Below are positions 5,513-18,768 of a stretch of DNA of 18,859 bases, one piece after another. Source of the DNA: Pseudomonadota bacterium (GTDB lineage Bacteria > Pseudomonadota > Gammaproteobacteria > PS1 > Pseudothioglobaceae); the NCBI GenBank assembly GCA_022600395.1, contig JAHZKM010000112.1, positions 1-18,859 of the forward strand, given 5' to 3'. A program made the translations under genes and the position numbers. Numbering within the stretch: position 1 is the stretch's first letter; every line of letters starts with the position of its first letter. Below the pieces are notes generated by a model, which made no database searches, had not been told where the DNA came from, and saw only the letters and a program-made list of their open reading frames with translations.

Positions 5513-7398
5513 AGACTACACTGACAAAAAACCTGCCAGGTTTTGAAAAAGTTCAGGGCTATTGGCGTCGACAAGGGTTTGTGAAATTTGTGTTTGTTAC
5601 CTTATTCGCTATCTTTTCTTATCAAGCTGTTTCTATTTCAAATGCTGACTATCCAGAACAGTCTATCCAAGATCGAGCGCACAACCAAGCAAATAAAATA
5701 CAAACCAATACTGCTAGAAGAGGGGACATTCTTGATCGAAATGGCAATATATTGGCTAGCTCAAGATTACTCAAACGTGTCATTTTAGATCCAATGCTTA
5801 TTCATCCAGCTTTTATCCCTGGGCTTGCTAAAGCGCTCAATATGAATGAGGAAAAATTAAGCGCACTACTTGCTAAAAAAAGAGCCATCAAATCTCGCTA
5901 TTTACCCATCAAAAAAAATATTACACTTACTGATCCTATTCTTAAAAATCTAATCGAGTTCAAAAAACAAACAGTTAAAGTTTGCACTGAAAAAATGGTT
6001 GATGCTGAAATTGGACTGATTGATAAGATGCTAAACGCAATAAACTGGAAATCTGTAAAAGCTGCAAAAATAAAACAGTCGCCATGTAGAGATAAGCGAA
6101 TTGGTCAAGCTGTTGTTCTTAGACAAGATACTCAAAGATACTATCCAAAATCTGCTTCTATAGCACCTTTGTTAGGCCGTGTTAATGCTGAAAATAAAGG
6201 AAGCTCAGGTATTGAAGCAGAATTTGAATCGGTTCTGGCTGGCGTAGATGGCAAAAGTCATCTAAATTTTTCAAATACAGGCAATAAAGCCTACTTTAAT
6301 CCGCAAGTAAAAACCAAACTATCGCATGGTCAGAATATTGAATTAACGATTGATAGCGACATCCAATATCATACTTATGCGGCCATTAAAAAATCGGTTC
6401 TAAAACATGAGGCAAATTCAGGATCTGCGATTATTCTTTCAGCTAATGGCGAAATATTAGCTATGGCTAATTACCCAGCTGACGATCCAAATGATAAAAG
6501 CCTATACAATCCAAGTCATTATCGTAATCGCGTTTTATCTGACAAAGTAGAGCCAGGCTCAACAATGAAGCCATTTACTATGTTATTAGCGCTTGATCAA
6601 GGAAAAATTAGCGCCGAAGATGACGAGTTAATTGATGTTAGCAAATCCATTGGCCATCTTAAAACCAATCAAGAAGTTAGAAAGTATGGCGATGCTATTA
6701 CTGTGAAAAAAATCCTACAAAAATCTCATAATTTAGGCACCGTTAATGTCTCTGAACGCCTTAGCAAACAAGCTATGTATGACACCTGGAACAAGCTTGG
6801 ATTTAGCCATCCTCTAGGGCTAATTCCCAGTATTGAAAACCCAGGCTCGCTTAGGCATTATTCATCATGGGGAATGATGGATAAACGTACACTCTCCTTT
6901 GGATATGGCCCTATGAACACTAATCTAGCACAACTAGCTAGAGCTTATTTGGTCTTTGCTAATCGAGGCGCAATGCCCAATTTAAAACTAGTTAAAAATA
7001 TGATTTATGATGAACAAAAGGTGCAAATTTTTAAGCCAGAATCTACTGAAAAAATAGCAGAGCTACTCGATAGTGTTGCCTCAAATGAAGGCTCTGGCTA
7101 TTGGTCAAACATTAAAGGGTATAGTATAGCTGGCAAAACTGGGACGGCGGAGATGAGTATCAATGGTGCTTATGATAAAAATGGCGCTCAACGCACTTTT
7201 TTTGCAGGCTTTGTGCCTGTAAAAAAACCAAAATACATCATGCTAGTTAGACTAGATCATCCTAAAAAATGCTTTTCAAAAGGCAAAGTCAAACTTAAGA
7301 GAAATTGCCAGGGCTCTAATTCAGCTGCCATTGTCTTTAACGAAACAATGAAACATGTTCTTACCAATGATAAATCAATTAGAATCAGTTTGAAATAA
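5509..7398 (+). CDS. ftsI: Septal peptidoglycan transpeptidase FtsI (PBP3)
   Basis: Class B penicillin-binding protein that cross-links septal peptidoglycan with FtsW. One membrane span lies at about 25-44, followed by the dimerisation domain with ARRGDILDRNGNILASS (69-85). The transpeptidase motifs are all present: STMK with nucleophile Ser351, SHN at 406-408 and KTGT at 543-546. At 629 residues it is about 40 longer than E. coli FtsI. The extra length is largely a Lys-rich insert around 150-197 containing Cys159 and Cys193, and a loop near 588-600 bounded by Cys588 and Cys600. It overlaps ftsL and is the last gene of this truncated dcw run: murE does not follow, and convergent dnaG begins at the next base. 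FtsI rather than another class B PBP is supported by the ftsL linkage. Confidence 0.95.
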   Translation: MKTTLTKNLPGFEKVQGYWRRQGFVKFVFVTLFAIFSYQAVSISNADYPEQSIQDRAHNQANKIQTNTARRGDILDRNGNILASSRLLKRVILDPMLIHPAFIPGLAKALNMNEEKLSALLAKKRAIKSRYLPIKKNITLTDPILKNLIEFKKQTVKVCTEKMVDAEIGLIDKMLNAINWKSVKAAKIKQSPCRDKRIGQAVVLRQDTQRYYPKSASIAPLLGRVNAENKGSSGIEAEFESVLAGVDGKSHLNFSNTGNKAYFNPQVKTKLSHGQNIELTIDSDIQYHTYAAIKKSVLKHEANSGSAIILSANGEILAMANYPADDPNDKSLYNPSHYRNRVLSDKVEPGSTMKPFTMLLALDQGKISAEDDELIDVSKSIGHLKTNQEVRKYGDAITVKKILQKSHNLGTVNVSERLSKQAMYDTWNKLGFSHPLGLIPSIENPGSLRHYSSWGMMDKRTLSFGYGPMNTNLAQLARAYLVFANRGAMPNLKLVKNMIYDEQKVQIFKPESTEKIAELLDSVASNEGSGYWSNIKGYSIAGKTGTAEMSINGAYDKNGAQRTFFAGFVPVKKPKYIMLVRLDHPKKCFSKGKVKLKRNCQGSNSAAIVFNETMKHVLTNDKSIRISLK

Positions 7399-15789: not shown

Positions 15790-16374
15790 CTACTCCAATA
15801 ATTCAAAAGCACTAATCACACTCTCGGCGACGTCAACAATTCTTTTGTTTTTATCCATTGCCATTTTTCGCAAAGATTGATAAGCGTCATCCTCGGTAAT
15901 TTCTTTATGCTTCATTAAAAGTCCCTTGGCCTTTTCAACGGCTTTTCGCTCTGATAGTTGATTACGAGTAGCATCTAACTCATCTTTAAGCGCCTGAAAT
16001 TCTCTAAATCGAGCCATGGCCACATCAATAATTGGCTGAACACGATTCTCCTCAAGTCCATCCACAATATAAGCATTAACACCTGATTTAATAGCTGAAC
16101 TAGCCATTTCAGAATTAGATTCTTCAGCAAACATTACAATAGGTTTTGGCTTGGTTTTATTGACATCTGTTAAATTTGCAAATACCTCTTCATCAGGAAT
16201 ATCGGCGTTGACAATTACAACATCTGCATGCGTCATTTCATTGCTATCTTGAAGCTGGGCGCTACTGGCCATTCGACAAATAACCTCATGACCCTTGTCT
16301 TGAAGTGCTCTGCGTAACATGGCGGAACGCCCTGAGTTTTCATCAACCAAGATGATTTTAAGTGCTGTATTCAT
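15790..16374 (-). CDS. NasT-like ANTAR-domain antiterminator with pseudo-receiver
   Basis: RNA-binding regulator that promotes transcription through leader terminators by stabilising tandem hexaloop hairpins. The 194 residues comprise a receiver-like domain (6-118; IILVDE at 8-12, GVNAYIVDG, IIDVAMARF), a short helical linker and a C-terminal ANTAR domain (about 131-192; SERKAVEKAKGLLMKHKEITEDDAYQSLRKMA). The whole length resembles NasT of nitrate assimilation. The residue at the phosphoacceptor position of strand beta-3 is Asn56 (VVIVNADIP), not Asp, so canonical phosphorylation is unlikely. NasT is normally held by NasS; no NasS is present here. It lies 16 bases downstream of a CBS-domain gene on the same strand, downstream of glnK-amtB. 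A matching RNA target lies in the glnK leader at 18687-18726. Confidence 0.9.
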   Translation of the reverse strand: MNTALKIILVDENSGRSAMLRRALQDKGHEVICRMASSAQLQDSNEMTHADVVIVNADIPDEEVFANLTDVNKTKPKPIVMFAEESNSEMASSAIKSGVNAYIVDGLEENRVQPIIDVAMARFREFQALKDELDATRNQLSERKAVEKAKGLLMKHKEITEDDAYQSLRKMAMDKNKRIVDVAESVISAFELLE

Positions 16375-16390: not shown

Positions 16391-16834
16391 TTATGATGTC
16401 ATACAAGACTTAAAAATAGCTCTATGTACATCGCCAATACTCACAATGCCTACCAATTTACCTTGCTGAGTTACTGGAATTCTACGGTATTTTTTAAGCC
16501 ACATAGCGCTGGCCGCTTTTAAACAAGGCATGTCAAGATCAATACTATCAACTCCATGAGTCATGATTTCACTAATTTTGACATTCATCGTTTCTTTATA
16601 ATTGGTTTCCATATTTTCAAAATCAAAATGAGTGTCACTCATAACATCTTCCAACTTCGGAAACATGTGCTGCAAAATATCTTTTTCGGAAATAATTCCA
16701 ATTAGATTGTTCTCAATATCAACAACCGGAGCACCACTAATGTGGTCCATAATCATCATTAGCGCAATATCTTTAACAGGCTGGTCAGCAGTTACTGTTT
16801 TTACATTAGTTGACATAATATCTTGAACAATCAT
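16391..16834 (-). CDS. Paired CBS-domain protein
   Basis: Stand-alone Bateman module of 147 residues. CBS1 spans about 1-59 (MIVQDIMSTNVKTV, then GIISEKDILQHM) and CBS2 about 85-143 (VKISEIMTHGVDSI, then GIVSIGDVHRAIF). Such pairs typically bind adenine nucleotides or S-adenosyl compounds and transmit energy or ligand state to a partner. No other domain is fused. The start has a good Shine-Dalgarno (TGGAGAAA) and its own promoter after the amtB terminator. The ANTAR regulator follows 16 bases downstream, so the two are almost certainly one transcript. A role as sensor or partner for the ANTAR protein is inference from linkage only. Confidence 0.9.
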   Translation of the reverse strand: MIVQDIMSTNVKTVTADQPVKDIALMMIMDHISGAPVVDIENNLIGIISEKDILQHMFPKLEDVMSDTHFDFENMETNYKETMNVKISEIMTHGVDSIDLDMPCLKAASAMWLKKYRRIPVTQQGKLVGIVSIGDVHRAIFKSCMTS

Positions 16835-16910: not shown

Positions 16911-16933
16911 AAAAAACCCCGCATAAGCGGGGT
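16911..16933 (-). terminator. Rho-independent terminator of glnK-amtB
   Basis: Read on the minus strand, ACCCCGC pairs with GCGGGGT around a TTAT loop and runs into six T (16916-16911). It ends the amtB transcript about 30 bases after the stop codon and isolates it from the CBS-ANTAR unit. Confidence 0.93.
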
Positions 16934-16962: not shown

Positions 16963-18174
16963 TTATTTGGTAAACTCTGGGTAAGCCTCTAGACCACACT
17001 CAGCAATATCAGCGCCTGAATATTCTTCTTCTTCAGAAATTCTAACACCCATAATCGCCTTAAGTGCTAGCCACAATACTAAAGAAGTACCAAATACCCA
17101 AACAAAGATTGTACCTGCGCCTGCTAACTGGCCACTAAACGAAACAGCTGAATTAGTAAGTGGTACAGCTAATAAACCCCAAAAACCAACCACACCGTGT
17201 ACAGAAATAGCACCCACTGGATCATCAATCTTAAAAACTTTATCTAACGTAGAAATTGAGAAAACAACCAAGATACCACCAACAGCACCAATTAAAGTAG
17301 CCTCTAAAGCTGTTGGCGTATCAGGACCGGCAGTAATTGCCACGAGACCAGCTAATGCACCGTTTAATGCCATAGTTAAATCCGCCTTTCCCCATAGTAA
17401 TTTGACCAAAATCAATGCAGCAATAACACCGCCCGCTGCCGCAGCATTAGTATTCAAAAATACCATTGCAACTGCATTTGCACTTTCTTTACTAGCCATT
17501 GCTAATACCGAACCACCATTAAAGCCAAACCAGCCCATCCACAGAATAAAAGTACCTAATGTTGCAAGTGGCATATTTGCACCTGGAATAGCGTTCGATG
17601 ATCCATCTTTGTTGTATTTACCCTTGCGCGCTCCCAAGACAATAACACCTGCTAAAGCTGCAGCAGCACCAGCCATATGTACAATACCCGAACCTGCAAA
17701 GTCGGCAAAACCTAAGTCGCCCAATTTATAAAGGCCAAATACTGACTCTCCGGCCCACGTCCAAGCACCTTCCATCGGATAAATAATGCCTGTAAATACA
17801 ACCGCAAAAGCAAAGAATGAGAAAAGTTTCATACGCTCAGCAACTGCTCCTGAAACAATACTCATCGCCGTTGCAACGAATACAACCTGAAAGAAAAAGT
17901 CAGAAGCATTTGAGTATTTATCACCTGCACCACTAATACCATCTAATAAAATACCGCCGCCATACATTAAGTCATAGCCATAAACCATGTAAGTCGTACA
18001 GGCAATCGCAAATAAGCCGATATTTTTCGTTAAAATTTCTGCCGTATTTTTACTACGAACCATTCCCGCTTCTAGCATTGAGAAGCCCGCTGCCATCCAC
18101 ATAACTAATGCACCCATCATTAAGAAATAAAAGGTATCCAATGCAAATTGCATTTCTAAAATCGTATTTTCCAT
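16963..18174 (-). CDS. amtB: Ammonium transporter
   Basis: Trimeric inner-membrane channel of the Amt/Rh family conducting ammonia/ammonium. The 403 residues have about 11 membrane spans and the conserved pore elements DFAGSGIVHMAGA (158-170, first pore His166), GWFGFNGGS (214-222) and AISVHGVVGFWG (322-333, twin pore His326). Asp158 occupies the ammonium-binding support position. The cytoplasmic C-terminal tail (SEEEEYSGADIAECGLEAYPEF) has the family's GlnK-responsive signature. It begins ten bases after glnK with a perfect Shine-Dalgarno AAAGGAGG, so translation is strong and independent. Together with glnK it forms the standard PII-gated uptake pair. No cleavable signal peptide is evident. 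Confidence 0.96.
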   Translation of the reverse strand: MENTILEMQFALDTFYFLMMGALVMWMAAGFSMLEAGMVRSKNTAEILTKNIGLFAIACTTYMVYGYDLMYGGGILLDGISGAGDKYSNASDFFFQVVFVATAMSIVSGAVAERMKLFSFFAFAVVFTGIIYPMEGAWTWAGESVFGLYKLGDLGFADFAGSGIVHMAGAAAALAGVIVLGARKGKYNKDGSSNAIPGANMPLATLGTFILWMGWFGFNGGSVLAMASKESANAVAMVFLNTNAAAAGGVIAALILVKLLWGKADLTMALNGALAGLVAITAGPDTPTALEATLIGAVGGILVVFSISTLDKVFKIDDPVGAISVHGVVGFWGLLAVPLTNSAVSFSGQLAGAGTIFVWVFGTSLVLWLALKAIMGVRISEEEEYSGADIAECGLEAYPEFTK

Positions 18175-18184
18175 GTTGCCTCCT

Positions 18185-18639
<455 letters not shown>

Positions 18640-18646
18640 ATCGTGC

Positions 18647-18693
18647 AAAAAAAAACGTTTATTTAAATCCTTAAAAAGAACCTAAATAAACGT
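18647..18693 (-). terminator. Leader terminator T1, mutually exclusive with ANTAR hairpin P2
   Basis: On the minus strand ACGTTTATTTA (18693-18683) pairs perfectly with TAAATAAACGT (18665-18655). The 17 bases between can continue the helix with about seven more pairs, including G-U, capped by UUU. T-run 18655-18647 follows. Bases 18687-18693 are shared with P2 of the ANTAR element, including the whole P2 3' arm, so the two structures cannot coexist. That is the hallmark of an ANTAR-controlled attenuator. Confidence 0.88.
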
Positions 18694-18726
18694 CAGTGTT
18701 TAGTGTTAACTTCCCGCCTTTGGGAA
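18687..18726 (-). promoter_or_regulatory. ANTAR RNA target: tandem hexaloop hairpins P1 and P2
   Basis: Minus strand. P1 is TTCCC-[AAAGGC]-GGGAA (18726-18711), extendable by two G-U pairs. P2 is TAAAC-[ACTGAC]-GTTTA (18702-18687). The linker is 8 bases. Both loops are six bases with A at position 1 and G at position 4, the conserved identity of ANTAR-protein RNA substrates. P2 overlaps the 5' arm of T1, and P1 starts only a few bases after the predicted transcription start. Binding of an ANTAR dimer would stabilise P2, prevent T1 and let transcription run towards glnK-amtB. An ANTAR gene lies at 15790-16374. Confidence 0.85.
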
Positions 18727-18739
18727 ACAACTGTTTGAA

Positions 18740-18768
18740 ATTATAACCGCTTTAAAAAAATAAAGCAA
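18740..18768 (-). promoter_or_regulatory. Sigma-70 promoter of glnK-amtB with overlapping palindrome
   Basis: On the minus strand a perfect -10 TATAAT (18745-18740) follows a 17-base spacer from TTGCTT (18768-18763), a weak -35. The start point is near 18733, just before P1. A palindrome, GCTTTA (18749-18754) / TAAAGC (18761-18766) with 6 bases between, overlaps the -35 and spacer and could be an operator. No sigma-54 -24/-12 pair was found, unlike many glnK promoters. Confidence 0.65.

Follow-up and report, generated by a model that had tools for sequence, protein, structure and literature searches.

Two attenuators in series, probably under ANTAR control, in the glnK-amtB leader of a Thioglobus/SUP05 relative

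The leader of the glnK-amtB operon in the DNA analysed here (the window: 18,859 nt, positions 1 to 18,859 of contig JAHZKM010000112.1, assembly GCA_022600395.1) carries two attenuators in series, and we consider it highly probable (roughly 0.88) that tandem antitermination by an ANTAR protein at the two terminators, T1 and T2, controls the production of PII and the ammonium channel. Named members of the family to which the window genome belongs include Thioglobus, SUP05, the Bathymodiolus symbionts, Ruthia, Vesicomyosocius and Pseudothioglobus. SUP05 and Thioglobus, which are marine sulfur oxidisers, inhabit, together with their symbiont relatives in mussels and clams, oxygen-poor and vent waters; how nitrogen uptake could be controlled in the absence of NtrC and sigma-54 is not evident from their genomes, and the locus offers a testable answer, namely double termination by default, relieved by an ANTAR protein.

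All features described below lie on the minus strand. The glnK gene for PII (18185..18529; PF00543), whose start at MKIITA was placed by alignment with relatives, precedes amtB (16963..18174; PF00909), which encodes an ammonium transporter of the marine subtype (TIGR03644, 614.9 bits). Behind amtB stands an intrinsic terminator of seven pairs, six of them G-C, followed by TTTTT (16916..16933), and a comparable terminator is found behind amtB in 24 of the 40 loci examined, the window included. Further downstream are genes for a CBS-pair protein (16391..16834; PF00571), which is absent from this interval in many relatives, and for a REC-ANTAR protein (15790..16374; PF03861, 2.6e-19), the presumed antiterminator. 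Because the terminator behind amtB is strong, the CBS and ANTAR genes probably form a transcription unit of their own; the linkage of the ANTAR gene to amtB is therefore one of neighbourhood, and the idea of a single glnK-amtB-CBS-ANTAR operon with positive feedback was dropped on the same ground.

For comparison, 58 glnK leaders were extracted, of which 12 were duplicates as judged by their last 230 bases, leaving 46 distinct leaders. Leader statistics refer to the 41 with an intact amtB, five others (L050, L051, L085, L090 and L095) being excluded since their amtB is degraded or lost; L086 was further excluded from alignment A2 (40 rows), and pair changes were counted on 39 distinct rows. 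As the leaders share ancestry, these counts do not represent independent events, and kinship is only partly removed by slid and shuffled controls. The P2 anchor and P4 were located with patterns that prefer or require A1/G4 loops, and for the pairing of T1 and T2 a few offsets near P2 and P4 were compared and the best taken, a choice that favours pairing and overlap. The window genome is 94% complete, and many of the genomes are fragmented drafts, so that the absence of a gene is weak evidence throughout.

The promoter element proposed by the first-pass annotation is present: a TATAAT -10 box occupies 18745-18740 (feature 18740..18745) and is exact in 43 of the 46 distinct leaders, with one mismatch in the other 3. 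The -35-like hexamer TTGCTT (18763..18768), set off by a 17-nt spacer, is weak alone, having 3 mismatches to TTGACA; an exact TTGACA occurs in 4/46 leaders (L043, L044, L067 and L081) with spacers of 16-19. In all 46 distinct leaders this box lies 51-60 nt upstream of the 3' arm of P2, and hence both terminators stand between promoter and gene.

Downstream of the promoter, the two tandem hexaloop hairpins with A1/G4 loops that had been claimed for this site (AAAGGC and ACTGAC) are both present on the minus strand. The first, P1, reads GTTTCCC[AAAGGC]GGGAAGT (18709..18728, loop 18721-18716); its G4 is kept in 41/41 leaders and its A1 in 33/41, the remaining 8 having G at position 1, and its stem covaries, with 70 cells altered on both sides where shuffles average 24.4; the 70 was reached in 0/500 shuffles and is far above the slid controls. 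The second, P2, reads TAAAC[ACTGAC]GTTTA (18687..18702, loop 18697-18692), and keeps G4 in 41/41 and A1 in 39/41 leaders, the first three pairs of its stem forming in 41/41 with hardly any variation. The spacing between the two loops is 16-19 nt in 40/41 leaders and 24 in L086. T1 is an intrinsic terminator (18647..18694, core 18692-18656, nine T at 18655-18647) that has its 5' arm in common with P2, and the two structures are mutually exclusive. An 11-pair terminator overlapping the second hairpin had been described here; the overlap and the long run of nine T stand, whereas the helix, which is A/T-rich, folds as 17-19 pairs. Across the family the T1 helix, which includes the 3' arm of P2 and starts in the P2 loop (its start being sought only in the neighbourhood of the P2 loop and arm), pairs at 8/8 positions in 41/41 leaders, followed by the T-run. 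Covariation of P1, P2 and T1 in aligned glnK leaders had been proposed as a check on the structure; it is borne out for P1, whereas P2 and much of T1 hardly vary and are too invariant to tell, so that covariation says little there. In RNA folding the 106-nt stretch has a minimum free energy with z = -4.2, its best full structure being P1 + T1, and in growing prefixes P1 + P2 remains optimal as long as the 3' arm of T1 has not been transcribed. The stems of P2 and P4 are short, each alone being worth only about -0.9 kcal/mol. As an observation at this locus, the dual-hexaloop attenuator is confirmed as real.

The first-pass annotation had placed one attenuator at 18647..18740. The attenuator holds; the number does not, given that a second module composed of P3, P4 and T2 follows P1-P2/T1 at 18642-18554, between T1 and the glnK start, making the leader two attenuators in series. 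Here P4 is a hairpin with a 3-pair stem, GGT[ATTGAA]GCC (18604..18615, loop 18612-18607), with both A1 and G4 in 40/41 leaders, a count for which the pattern had asked for them, the exception being L076. In a plain, pattern-free alignment the A1 of P4 is invariant and its G4 reaches >=90%, and the columns for the P1 G4 and the P2 A1 and G4 are likewise invariant or >=90%. The P4 stem shows a concerted change from TGGT..GCCA to TAGC..GCTA in L067, L089 and L041. T2, an intrinsic terminator with an 8-T run (18554..18609), has its 5' arm in common with P4, and the pair is again mutually exclusive: in prefix folding P4 forms and is then displaced by T2. Stem pairs 1-8 of T2 form in 38-41 of the 41 leaders, where shuffling leads one to expect 18.1-21.5 at pairs 2-7, and T2 covaries strongly across these leaders. 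P3 (18626..18642) is less uniform. In the window it carries the pentaloop ACGAG, with A1 and G3, instead of the hexaloop by which ANTAR targets are defined, and an A1/G3 pentaloop is found in 19/41 leaders including this one; an A1/G4 hexaloop is possible in another 19/41 and the other 3 fit neither, and among the 19 hexaloop-capable leaders a tetraloop with a paired A1 scores better in 13.

The specificity of the design was probed with a strict descriptor that demands a pair of A1/G4 hexaloop hairpins and a terminator overlapping the second of them. Applied to the window and loci L067-L122 (1.21 Mb when both strands are counted), it returned 18 matches in 15 loci, every one in a glnK leader and, in the window, at this site only; two of the matches represent P3-P4 modules, and a third repeats the L114 site in another register. 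It finds 15 of the 38 glnK leaders in the scanned set, the other 23 failing its rules, and gave 0 matches in 3.63 Mb of first-order Markov sequence. Rfam 15 gave no match at the gathering score, and with relaxed thresholds the leader had 32 matches, each falling short of its gathering score and none to an ANTAR family, a result that speaks neither for nor against the identity of the leader as an ANTAR target. Retention in relatives of the A1/G4 loops and of the overlap between P2 and T1 had been set beforehand as a check, and both are retained (G4 41/41, terminator helix 41/41). As judged from sequence comparison, the reading of the glnK-amtB leader as an ANTAR-controlled attenuator is supported.

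Among the closest known systems is EutV acting on the eut leaders of Enterococcus faecalis, which in the available parts of the sources resembles the present system in its REC-ANTAR protein, its dual A1/G4 hexaloop RNA and the overlap of P2 with an intrinsic terminator, the EutV dimer binding the hexaloops via G4 and preventing formation of the terminator (PMC3369931; PMC8934654). It differs from the present system, on the same sources, in that the targets here are nitrogen uptake genes and two modules stand in series before one operon. We propose that transcription of glnK-amtB would start at the TATAAT promoter and by default stop at T1 and T2 in series. By analogy with EutV, NasR and NasT, the active ANTAR protein, encoded downstream in the cluster, would bind the A1/G4 loops as the transcript emerges, P1 then P2 and P3 then P4, holding the RNA strand needed for each terminator and so permitting read-through to PII and the ammonium channel. 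Two checkpoints could tighten the off state, and the nature of the target genes suggests nitrogen limitation as the activating condition.

The ANTAR domain of the window protein scores 69.2 bits against PF03861 (curated cut-off 27.3) and is the only ANTAR match in its genome; relatives in the PDB are Rv1626 (1s8n), EutV (6wsh) and NasR (4akk). A match to the protein is present in 32 of the 36 family genomes, G010 having only a C-terminal fragment, and among these 36, many of them drafts, none was found in G018, G019, G024 and G025, though glnK1 targets occur in G018 and G024, and a glnK2 leader in G025. Residues were counted in 61 family sequences, excluding L121 (39% identity). In EutV, according to the accessible part of the structural report, Arg142, Lys149 and Glu160 contact G4 and Met172 forms a plug (PMC8934654). 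Their counterparts R143, K150, E161 and M173 are invariant in 61/61, as are K144, R169 and R178; position 148 is K or R, and EutV Asn173 and Arg175 are replaced by D/N174 and N176.

The receiver domain departs from EutV, which is described as activated by phosphorylation at Asp54 (PMC3369931; PMC8934654, as far as available): the phosphoacceptor site is Asn56 in 61/61 family sequences, with Asp only in the non-family L121. Judged by this residue, phosphorylation is unlikely as the signal route. A NasS-type partner is not apparent either, PF13379 (NasS/NrtA-type) having no match in 34/36 family genomes including that of the window and scoring <25 bits in G025 and G034, compared with >250 bits in six outside genomes, in five of which it adjoins the ANTAR gene. 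These two observations, together with the clustering of the four genes, favour a sensor within the cluster, namely the CBS-pair protein, PII (GlnK) or the pseudo-receiver of the ANTAR protein itself, acting without a separate kinase or NasS. Such a sensor is compatible with tandem antitermination and would complete it, and we rate it at somewhat short of even odds. In G019, which is 98% complete, ANTAR, PII and strong leader matches are missing together, but this is one genome; many relatives lack the CBS gene in this interval, for which reason it was set aside as an obligatory sensor; and in other relatives the ANTAR gene stands away from glnK, with no conserved partner gene seen beside it in four such loci, and linkage fixes no partner. 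The locus provides a natural system for the activation of a receiver that has neither a phosphoacceptor nor NasS.

Further candidate targets of the predicted switch were sought with a covariance model trained solely on the P1-P2 portion of glnK leaders and run on 57 genomes; covariance E-values are rough, and the window leader belongs to the training set of models R1 and R2. The glnK-only model matches nirB leaders in 16 of the 19 family genomes that have nirB over cut-off, family identity being confirmed on L164, and a P4-type A1/G4 loop accompanies 15 of these 16 (not L178). It also matches a serC leader (G023) and serB leaders (G034, and G030 by ORF start). The serC and serB attenuators are found at L161, L162 and L165, the L162 serB leader holding a short ORF that overlaps the serB start. 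Among 369 genomes sampled from the class under stricter filters, strong leader matches occurred only in the 4 family members present. Weak model matches within the hisG coding sequence of several genomes were rejected as chance and a match in G259 (27 bits) for want of a terminator. A P1-P2-T1-like element also precedes a 60-codon ORF at L183 (G026:C90:5086-5127).

The nirB targets raise the question whether the switch answers nitrate or nitrite, like NasS-NasT and NasR, with glnK-amtB as a secondary member of a nitrate regulon. The system in Paracoccus denitrificans, as available in part (PMC3795266), likewise ties a REC-ANTAR protein to nitrogen assimilation, nirB-type nitrite reductase genes being among the family targets here, and the nearest homologues of the window ANTAR protein outside the family (42-44% identity) lie directly beside nitrate-transporter-like genes, which suggests descent from a NasT-type regulator. 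It differs in that the window genome lacks a NasS-type (PF13379) match and in that the target there is glnK-amtB, twice, with the ANTAR gene beside one of the two. At 94% completeness the window genome yielded no NirB over cut-off and has nevertheless kept its glnK attenuators, and nitrate therefore need not be the signal; the serine genes among the targets of relatives also fit poorly, and we regard a nitrate switch as unlikely.

An action of the ANTAR protein mainly on translation or RNA stability, instead of termination, is suggested by the nirB leaders of G025, G028 and G032 (L195, L196 and L197), the three of the 19 genomes left over from the model matches, where two A1/G4 loops adjoin a hairpin masking the ribosome-binding site in place of a terminator, a translation-type layout, albeit with stems of only 2-3 pairs in two of the three; a translational case is also among the predictions in the available part of Ramesh et al. 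(2012; PMC3369931). The window has a run of 8-9 T behind each of the hairpins that P2 and P4 overlap, and such an action is very unlikely to be the main one here. That T1 and T2 are ordinary terminators shielding glnK from upstream read-through, with incidental hexaloops, can be given hardly any weight, for although the window ends just upstream, leaving room for read-through from upstream genes, and T2 alone looks a plain terminator by eye, the TATAAT box of 46 leaders (43 exact, 3 with one mismatch) puts both between promoter and gene, the loops are conserved alongside compensatory changes in the P1 stems, and the same module precedes nirB, serB and serC.

The usual control of glnK-amtB is exerted by NtrBC and sigma-54, which act on initiation. 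The presumed role of the ANTAR switch is the same, turning on PII and the ammonium channel when nitrogen is limiting, but it would work on elongation. RpoN is over cut-off in only 2 of the 36 family genomes (G022 and G035), of nearly full length but lower score in G002, G004 and G031, present as fragments in G014 and absent from the window genome. The NtrC equivalog is over cut-off in 0/36 family genomes, that of the window included, compared with 14 of 21 outside genomes. A scan of the 400 nt preceding the window glnK turned up no GG-N10-GC (-24/-12) site; since it detected no clear consensus in outside genomes either, this part of the comparison is weak evidence. As RpoN and NtrC-equivalog matches over cut-off are both missing from the window genome, the suggestion that antitermination operates rather than NtrC/sigma-54 is favoured, and from gene content the ANTAR switch appears to stand in for NtrC/sigma-54 in the family.

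A second glnK-amtB pair lies outside the window in the same genome (L226, G000:C106:5532-5597, with glnK at 5646). The leader of this glnK2 contains P1' CTAC[AATGGC]GTAG, P2' AGC[AGTGTT]GCT and a pentaloop hairpin GCCC[ATGAG]GGGT (A1/G3), an arrangement found in 19 of the 30 glnK2 leaders of the family, and its P1' covaries (23 cells vs 5.8, 0/500 shuffles). There is no clear terminator in the glnK2 leader, and the fold of the whole leader is no better than shuffles (z 0.29). A model of it, R3, found no further strong match, with five at E 0.05-0.4; having been built from the same 19 leaders that it later matched, it is informative only for that lack of other strong matches. The A1/G3 pentaloops are taken seriously mainly because they recur in glnK and glnK2 leaders, and they make the locus a natural system for asking how strict the six-base loop rule is for ANTAR proteins.

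That glnK-amtB should be an ANTAR target was presented as noteworthy in the first-pass annotation, and this is less novel than it seemed: the target class is already known, because Ramesh et al. (2012; PMC3369931), in the part available, report ANTAR targets upstream of P-II and ammonium transporter genes in diverse bacteria, and predict for Desulfotomaculum acetoxidans at least 13 ANTAR sites in six units. The main text of that paper (PMC3369931) makes no mention of Ruthia or Vesicomyosocius. No literature naming ANTAR together with Thioglobus was found, nor, among the matches listed, ANTAR together with SUP05, Ruthia magnifica, Vesicomyosocius or Pseudothioglobus. What is new here is the doubling of the attenuator, the apparent substitution for NtrC/sigma-54, the lack of a sensor and the variation in the loops. 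On a wider view, it is conceivable, if doubtful, that in the Thioglobaceae/SUP05 a phosphorylation-independent ANTAR protein without NasS has replaced NtrC/sigma-54 as a general regulator of nitrogen status, with an RNA regulon comprising two PII-ammonium-channel operons, nirB and serine genes. Such a regulator would act by tandem antitermination, and in some leaders by unmasking of the ribosome-binding site, might accept A1/G3 pentaloops besides hexaloops, and would draw its signal from PII or from a metabolite bound to the pseudo-receiver.

Some observations concern the decay of these loci. In the complete genome G001 (L198 318-605) nirB is cut to 95 codons with its double attenuator intact, and the ORF after the truncated nirB resembles, by eye, the nitrate reductase NasA. 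The symbionts with a degraded or lost amtB (L050, L051, L085, L090 and L095) retain the glnK, CBS and ANTAR genes. Among their leaders, L050 has lost P1, P2 and P4 altogether, L051 has lost P2 and kept P1 and P4, L090 and L095 have lost P4 and kept the P1- and P2-type A1/G4 hairpins, and L085 has kept all three. As the P1- and P2-type hairpins persist in L085, L090 and L095 without amtB, decay of the leader is uneven and does not simply track that of amtB; the clam-symbiont leaders show only partial decay. The nirB leader (L179) of G033, the genome from which L050 comes, is still recognisable.
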